Assembly (NCBI GenBank): GCA_013695705.1
Contig: JACCZX010000245.1
Location: forward strand, 1 to 33,938
Reading direction: 5' to 3'
Origin: Burkholderiaceae bacterium
GTDB lineage: Bacteria; Pseudomonadota; Gammaproteobacteria; Burkholderiales; Burkholderiaceae_F
Length of the DNA stretch: 33,938 bases
The translations under genes and the position numbers were made by a program. Below the pieces are notes generated by a model. It searched no databases, was not told where the DNA came from, and saw nothing but the letters and a program-made list of their open reading frames with translations. Below, one piece after another: positions 22,430 through 23,809 of the stretch (positions within the stretch are counted from its first letter, which is position 1; every line of letters starts with the position of its first letter).

Positions 22430-22843
22430 ATGCAAAAAAAAATGACGGGTAGGGGTAGGGCGAGGGTGCTAGCGGCGCCGCAGCGCCAACGCGGGATAAG
22501 TCTGATCGGACTTTTCCTGGTCGGCCTCATAGTGGTGGCTCTGATCGCGCTTGGCTTCAAGGTGATTCCGGCGGTGGTCGAATACGTTGCGATCGAACGT
22601 GCGGTGCAGAAGATCCGCAACGAAGGCTCGACGGTGCGTGAGATCCAGGCGGCGTTCGACCGCCATGCGACGATTGACGACATCACGTCGATCAGTAGCC
22701 GTGATCTCGACATCACCAAAGAGGGCGACCGTATCGTCGTCAGCTATGCGTATGCCAAGAAGATTCCGGTGCTCGACAACGTGTCGCTGGTTATCGATTT
22801 TTCCGGCACCACGCGCGACCGCCAGCGCAGAGACATTCCATAG
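22430..22843 (+). CDS. DUF4845 family, pilin-like N-terminal membrane protein
   Basis: RQRGISLIGLFLVGLIVVALIALGFKVIPAVVEY; conserved position between lepB and rnc; alternative in-frame ATG at 22442. Confidence 0.85.
   Translation: MQKKMTGRGRARVLAAPQRQRGISLIGLFLVGLIVVALIALGFKVIPAVVEYVAIERAVQKIRNEGSTVREIQAAFDRHATIDDITSISSRDLDITKEGDRIVVSYAYAKKIPVLDNVSLVIDFSGTTRDRQRRDIP
22447..22466 (+). other. Potential G-quadruplex motif on coding strand
   Basis: GGGTAGGGGTAGGGCGAGGG (four G-runs of 3 or more, loops of 2-3 nt). Confidence 0.7.
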
Positions 22844-22859
22844 TGCGCCACTTAGGAAG

Positions 22860-23031
22860 TAGGGCCTGCTCACACTAAAACATGAGATGCGTTGGGTCGC
22901 AATGCGGAGGGATGCGCGAAGAGCGGCGCTGTCCAATGGTGGTTCCATTTGCAAGCCGCTCGCTCATTTTGTACATGCGACTGCCGCCGCATTTTCACCC
23001 AACCCGCGTGATTTAATGTGAGCAGGCGCTA
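22860..23031. repeat. Long imperfect palindrome / MITE-like inverted-repeat element immediately 5' of rnc
   Basis: Arms 22860-22879 and 23012-23031 pair at 18/20 positions including an 11-bp perfect core GCCTGCTCACA/TGTGAGCAGGC; nested collinear pairs GTTGGGT/ACCCAAC, AATGCGG/CCGCATT, GAGCGGC/GCCGCTC, AATGG/CCATT; TA dinucleotide at both outer ends. Confidence 0.8.
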
Positions 23032-23032
23032 G

Positions 23033-23809
23033 ATGGAACTTACGGCGCTTGAAGAGCGCCTGGGCTATACCTTTGTCCAGCGCACGCTGATTGAGCAGGC
23101 CGTCACGCACCGAAGCCATGGCGCGGTGCACAATGAACGGCTCGAATTTCTGGGCGACGCCGTTTTGAACTGCGCCGTTGCGCAGCTGCTGTTCGCCAAG
23201 TACGCGCGCCTTGATGAAGGCGATTTATCGCGGCTGCGTTCCAATCTGGTCAAGCAATCTTCGCTGGCTGATATCGCCGAAAAACTGGTATTGGCGGATT
23301 TCATGCGCCTCGGCGAGGGCGAAATGAAAAGTGGTGGCTTTCGCCGGCCTTCGATTCTGGCCGACACCATGGAGGCGATTTTCGGCGCTATTTTCATCGA
23401 CCAGGGGTTCGACGCCGCGCGCACGGTCATCGGCAAGTTGTTCGAGCCAGTATTGAAAACAGTGGATCCTAAAACACTCGGCAAGGACAGCAAGACGCTG
23501 CTGCAGGAATACCTGCAGGGCAAGCGGATTTCGCTGCCGGTATACACCGTCGTCGAGACGCGGGGAGCCGCGCACAACCAGGAGTTCGAAGTCGAGTGTT
23601 CTATTCCCAAACTTGAAATCAGCGTGCGCGGCAGCGGGCGCAGCCGCCGTGCGGCGGAGCAATCTGCGGCAAAGCAGGCATGTGAGGCGGCGCAGCAGGC
23701 AATTGCCCGGCTCGGACGCCGTTCGCGCAAAAAGGTAGCCGACGCCACGGCAGTTGCAGGTTCCACGTCCGCTGATGCACCCGCGGACTCTGCAGCACAG
23801 ACCGTCTAG
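23033..23809 (+). CDS. rnc: Ribonuclease III
   Basis: [13 protein letters not shown] signature, C-terminal dsRBD; SD AGCAGG at 23021-23026. Confidence 0.96.

Follow-up and report, generated by a model that had tools for sequence, protein, structure and literature searches.

The long palindrome directly upstream of the RNase III gene (rnc) in a Burkholderiaceae genome is, judging from its sequence, almost certainly a copy of a multicopy non-autonomous transposable element of the MITE type. The palindrome lies in the window, that is, the whole stretch of DNA that was analysed (33,938 nucleotides; contig JACCZX010000245.1). For the whole account, in which the inserted MITE replaced and buried the Shine-Dalgarno (SD) sequence of rnc and RNase III would cut the resulting stem with incidental feedback, we estimate a probability of about 0.55. 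The gene order around the palindrome is lepA-lepB-DUF4845-rnc-era-recO (the flanking genes, DUF4845 and RNase III, were identified by Pfam), and the features of the locus are listed in Table 1.

Table 1. Features of the rnc locus, with positions in the window (TIR, terminal inverted repeat)
Feature	Position	Strand	Remarks
Mobile element, MITE type, single-hairpin form (assigned from sequence)	22860..23031	+	172 bp including the TA at each end; repeat family in its own genome and in relatives; ends set by TIR pairs in ~80 copies
Left TIR, TAGGGCCTGCTCACACTAAAACATGAG	22860..22886	+	Differs at one position from the TIR pattern; six other ends in the genome match that pattern with at most three mismatches
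Right TIR, degenerate, TGATTTAATGTGAGCAGGCGCTA	23009..23031	+	87% complementary to the left arm
Family core hairpin (model R1), including 12 nt that the other copies lack	22889..23005	+	77.8 bits, E 6.5e-14
Putative displaced ancestral rnc SD region (TTAGGAAG) and target TA	22852..22861	+	Rejoined flanks read TTAGGAAG-TA-G-ATG; 19-nt gap, as in the same-genus relative G001
Putative substitute SD, AGCAGG, in the right TIR, 6 nt 5' of ATG	23021..23026	+	Read from the sequence; probability of being unpaired in the leader predicted as 0.00
rnc, RNase III: nuclease domain and dsRNA-binding domain	23033..23809	+	Pfam PF14622, PF00636, PF00035; start codon conserved in relatives
DUF4845 gene, upstream operon neighbour	22430..22843	+	Stop at 22843; PF16137, E 2.1e-23

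The palindrome before rnc

The imperfect inverted repeat (22860-23031) occupies most of the DUF4845-rnc gap, with outer arms of 23 nt (22860-22882 and 23009-23031; 87% complementary) and inner arms at 22891-22917 and 22977-23003 (74% complementary). A preliminary description, made from the sequence alone, had reported an inverted repeat 5' of rnc, its 11-bp core (GCCTGCTCACA/TGTGAGCAGGC), an AATGG-tggtt-CCATT apex and an AGCAGG motif in the right arm, and all of these are found in the sequence where it placed them. It had also stated that the repeat stops one base before the rnc start, and a single G (23032) indeed separates the repeat end (23031) from the ATG (23033). The excess folding stability over shuffled sequences expected of such a structure was observed as well: the RNA has a minimum free energy of -80.7 kcal/mol, compared with a mean of -58.5 (sd 4.3) for shuffled sequences (z = -5.13; none of 200 shuffles was as stable). 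A stable stem, as would be looked for in an rncO-type leader, is therefore present before rnc. Reading the sequence alone could not reveal that the palindrome belongs to a repeat family, of which further copies lie elsewhere in the genome.

Copies of the element in its own genome

A search of the genome with the palindrome itself matched its left half at five other places, on both strands, with 87-96% identity; the right half is diverged, has no match elsewhere in the genome and lacks an intact close sister. The 27-nt end sequence TAGGGCCTGTTCACACTAAAACATGAG is found at seven ends in this genome with at most three mismatches (0 for the reversed-pattern control). Using the covariance model R1, we observed five clear copies, including the one in the window, and one weak copy (a seventh hit is the best copy read on the antisense strand); besides the four other core-bearing copies, the genome also contains partial ones. 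The copies have in common TIRs, which begin with TAGGGCCTGTTCACAC, a TA at the ends and a core that is a 105-nt hairpin. The longest open frame in the 172-bp element has 52 codons, so the element contains no transposase gene. It is thus short and without a transposase gene, has TIRs at its exact ends and is present in multiple dispersed copies, which are properties of MITEs.

No insertion sequence that could mobilize the family was recovered. In the 13 genomes scanned with three TIR patterns, no TIR pairs at insertion-sequence distance were found (the pairs are element-sized or shorter), nor was an autonomous insertion sequence with the same TIRs; at a contig end with a lone TIR, inspection of the ORFs by eye revealed no transposase. 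At the gathering threshold, Rfam detected only tRNAs in the window. When six copies were compared with Rfam under relaxed settings, two matches below threshold appeared, both at one locus (SAM_alpha, 26.6 bits; Bp2_287, 21.4 bits), which we treat as chance. A search of a plasmid collection gave no match.

The family across the order

The covariance model R1 identified the family in 44 out of 200 sampled genomes, representing 30 of 109 genera of the order, and some genomes contain more than 10 copies. In records that carry organism names, a pattern scan located the core in Nitrosomonas halophila, Thiobacillus, Sulfuricella, Sulfuriferula, Gallionellaceae and Nevskiaceae, and also in one Burkholderiaceae metagenome-assembled genome. 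About 80 copies are bound by TIR pairs, mostly ending in TA, and most of these copies are 165-305 bp long. The shorter copies (165-195 bp), the rnc copy among them, have one core; in most of the longer copies a second, inverted core follows about 4 nt after the first, as seen from model matches on the opposite strand.

The core shows strong covariation. In an alignment of 17 copies 95% of cells are paired (a figure that leans towards the structure, as the structure was derived from the same alignment), compared with just 29-35% for slid structures; 13 pairs have changed on both sides, and none of 500 shuffles was as high on any measure. This covariation is a property of the element family, as DNA or as RNA, and is uninformative about rnc. 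Covariation, which the preliminary description had proposed as a check, is found genome-wide in the element, and none of it belongs to rnc leaders.

At least seven different TIR sequences are found around the same conserved core in different genomes (e.g. in the copies L045, L067, L134, L135, L139, L142 and L043), with more than one in the genome G078. This variety of TIRs around one core suggests an exchange of ends between element lineages. Two genomes that carry full elements also contain pairs of the same TIR about 50 bp apart (G080:C25:3463-3514 and G179:C25:5772-5818), which form core-less, TIR-only palindromes. A description of the repeat was not found in the literature that we searched, which does not prove that none exists; the family, in which the hairpin core is conserved and often present as an inverted pair, the TIRs are interchangeable and stop-start gene junctions are preferred, may be undescribed so far.

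Placement of copies at gene starts and stops

For the 79 copies with defined ends, we compared their positions with those of control TA sites. Thirteen copies (16%) end 0-12 nt 5' of the ATG of an ORF with 150 codons or more, compared with 73 of 1565 control sites outside ORFs (5%; odds ratio 4.0; p 1.4e-4 in a one-sided Fisher test). The TA belongs to the stop codon of such an ORF in 27 copies (34%), compared with 73 of 1620 controls (4.5%; p 1.7e-15). These p-values are indicative only, because ORF calling was mechanical and some genomes contributed several copies. The insertion before rnc therefore fits the habit of the family. In the elements sited at stop codons, the terminal TAG or TAA of the element restores the stop.

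The start-adjacent copies include those before pyrD, a dnaQ-like gene and a gene for a TPP-enzyme-like protein (names assigned by inspection of the sequences). For example, a copy precedes pyrD in G057. In a congener the same site is empty and the stop and start codons overlap (TGATG), in support of the insertion as well as of the assigned start. The pyrD junction of another congener (G185:C1, between 2729102 and 2729276; L187) holds a different inverted-repeat insertion, TTGAACCGCAGAGGCC...GGCCTCCGCGGTTCAA. Two more copies were observed in G078: in a related copy at G078:C1:1408705-1409149 (L178, 1501-1945), the right TIR (ATGAGACAGGCTCTA) appears by eye to give the start and the first codons of a dxr-like gene, and in L134 (~2040-2290) the right TIR appears to give the start codon of an rlmN-like gene (MPTRPNLLDFD...; named by inspection).

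The insertion site at rnc

Among the 30 rnc loci searched with the model, a match was found only in that of the window, and the 29 relatives have no element there. The DUF4845-rnc gap is 189 nt in the window and 19-57 nt in relatives where it was measurable (two loci also permit a shorter reading). Subtracting the 172-bp element and adding back one TA gives 19 nt, identical to the gap in the same-genus relative (G001). This arithmetic fits one duplicated TA at rnc and, together with the TA at both ends, points to a putative target duplication; TA at both ends is likewise seen in most copies of the family, and the empty pyrD site of the congener has TG where the filled site has TA. The reconstructed empty site, TTAGGAAG-TA-G-ATG, carries an SD-like AGGA a few bases 5' of the start. 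Judged by this comparison, the element is inserted at a TA between the native SD (AGGAAG) and the start codon of rnc. By the same reconstruction, it parted the native SD from the ATG, and its right TIR placed AGCAGG 6 nt before the ATG.

Predicted consequences for rnc

With the element, a GC-rich hairpin of about 170 nt would enter the lepA-lepB-DUF4845-rnc-era mRNA, and the old rnc SD would be replaced by AGCAGG from the right TIR. The sole nearby SD-like sequence lies within the stem and is predicted to be fully buried, which bears out the earlier suggestion that folding sequesters it: its predicted unpaired probability is 0.00 in the full leader and 0.19-0.42 in RNAs starting inside the element, whereas the native SD of the empty site reaches 0.60. 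In RNAs truncated at the 5' end the SD is just partly freed, and in some of them the ATG is paired. According to these base-pairing calculations, the intact hairpin would leave no part of the substitute SD unpaired, and cutting the stem or removing its left arm would expose the SD in part.

The outer stem has about 19 pairs within 21 positions, and stems like this are within the substrate size range of RNase III. In Neisseria, RNase III has been reported to bind Correia elements in mRNA and then to cut or protect them (PMC2649163). Cutting at rnc is plausible, as the outer stem is long enough and Correia transcripts are reported to be cut; by this analogy, RNase III probably cuts the rnc leader transcript, which would part the upstream message from rnc, change the translation or stability of rnc and give incidental feedback on it. 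The effect of such cutting could be positive (the SD is exposed) or negative (the message is destabilised).

It may also be that the insertion is inert and tolerated: the element would be the same, any action of RNase III on it would be without consequence, and rnc would be translated before the nascent RNA folds or from a transcript starting downstream. We consider this a serious contender, at somewhat below even odds. An insertion here would be tolerated because the right end of the element supplies a usable SD, and copies frequently lie 0-12 nt 5' of the starts of unrelated genes, as described above. The rnc copy also appears to be decaying: the fold of its core has a z of -2.2, compared with -6.0 to -8.0 for five other copies, which suggests that the copy is not maintained. 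However, the SD is predicted to be entirely hidden in the folded stem, the outer stem is of a size that RNase III accepts, and the promoter and terminator scan found none of either (the promoter consensus covers sigma-70 types only). A paired difference present in both TIRs (U-A to C-G) was considered as a sign of selection for the rnc stem and dropped, as a copy in a congener (L043) has the same variant in both arms.

Beyond the incidental feedback that we favour, a stronger form of it can be imagined, in which the insertion rewired rnc. Its only usable SD would be hidden, and RNase III would have to cut the leader to license its own translation, or its cutting would destroy the message that encodes it. 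A mobile element, perhaps of an undescribed family, would then serve as operator for an enzyme by which such structures are processed. We regard this as doubtful.

A bespoke operator that evolved at rnc for autoregulation, as the preliminary description had proposed by analogy with E. coli rncO, is very improbable. A long stable stem with a buried SD does lie in the rnc leader, and E. coli rnc is autoregulated through a structure in its 5' UTR, according to PMC5371410 (citing Matsunaga 1996 and Bardwell 1989). But the palindrome arose by insertion of a mobile element that is dispersed in the genome, and as to origin the proposal is refuted by the copies elsewhere. The structure is not kept in the rnc leaders of the lineage: it is absent from the other 29 loci, and four relatives' leaders fold no better than shuffled sequences (z of -0.67, -1.05, -1.32 and +0.69). 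The decay of the rnc copy also counts against it; a function at rnc gained after the insertion is possible.

Least probable of all is a repeat-mediated misjoin that put the repeat at rnc in this fragmented assembly (483 contigs): other copies do break contigs (one contig ends inside a TIR, L155, and another inside the element, L003), but DUF4845 and rnc adjoin in relatives too, so the two sides of the insertion belong together, and the copy is not a misplaced one, as its right half has no match elsewhere in the genome.

Comparison with known systems

The insertion at rnc corrects an attractive misreading, in that a palindrome at rnc need not be an evolved operator. It exposes a repeat family that is widespread in the order and lands at gene junctions, where its ends can replace a ribosome-binding site. 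If RNase III does cut the rnc copy, the locus would offer a simple example of a gene that has gained its regulation from a mobile element.

The family resembles the Correia elements of Neisseria (CREE/NEMIS) in being short, non-coding and multicopy, with inverted repeats, in its frequent location 5' of genes and in forming a hairpin in the transcript. It differs from them in sequence (the CREE signatures CCGGTACGG and TCAGGACAA are absent within 22860-23031, allowing at most one mismatch) and in architecture, as its TIRs differ from group to group, and the 105-nt hairpin that they enclose is conserved and often present in two inverted copies. Binding and cutting (or protection) by RNase III, reported for CREE transcripts (PMC2649163), are predicted by analogy for the present element. 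Small interspersed repeats are also known as BOX and RUP in pneumococci, as outlined in PMC3049150; those belong to a different bacterial lineage, and we liken them to the present family by description, not by sequence. Like E. coli rncO, a 5' UTR structure that RNase III cuts (PMC5371410), the rnc copy places a stem-loop in the rnc leader. Unlike rncO, it stems from the insertion of a transposable element and was present at rnc in only one of the genomes examined, and it would affect translation and not mRNA decay alone, because it ends one base from the start codon and carries the SD.
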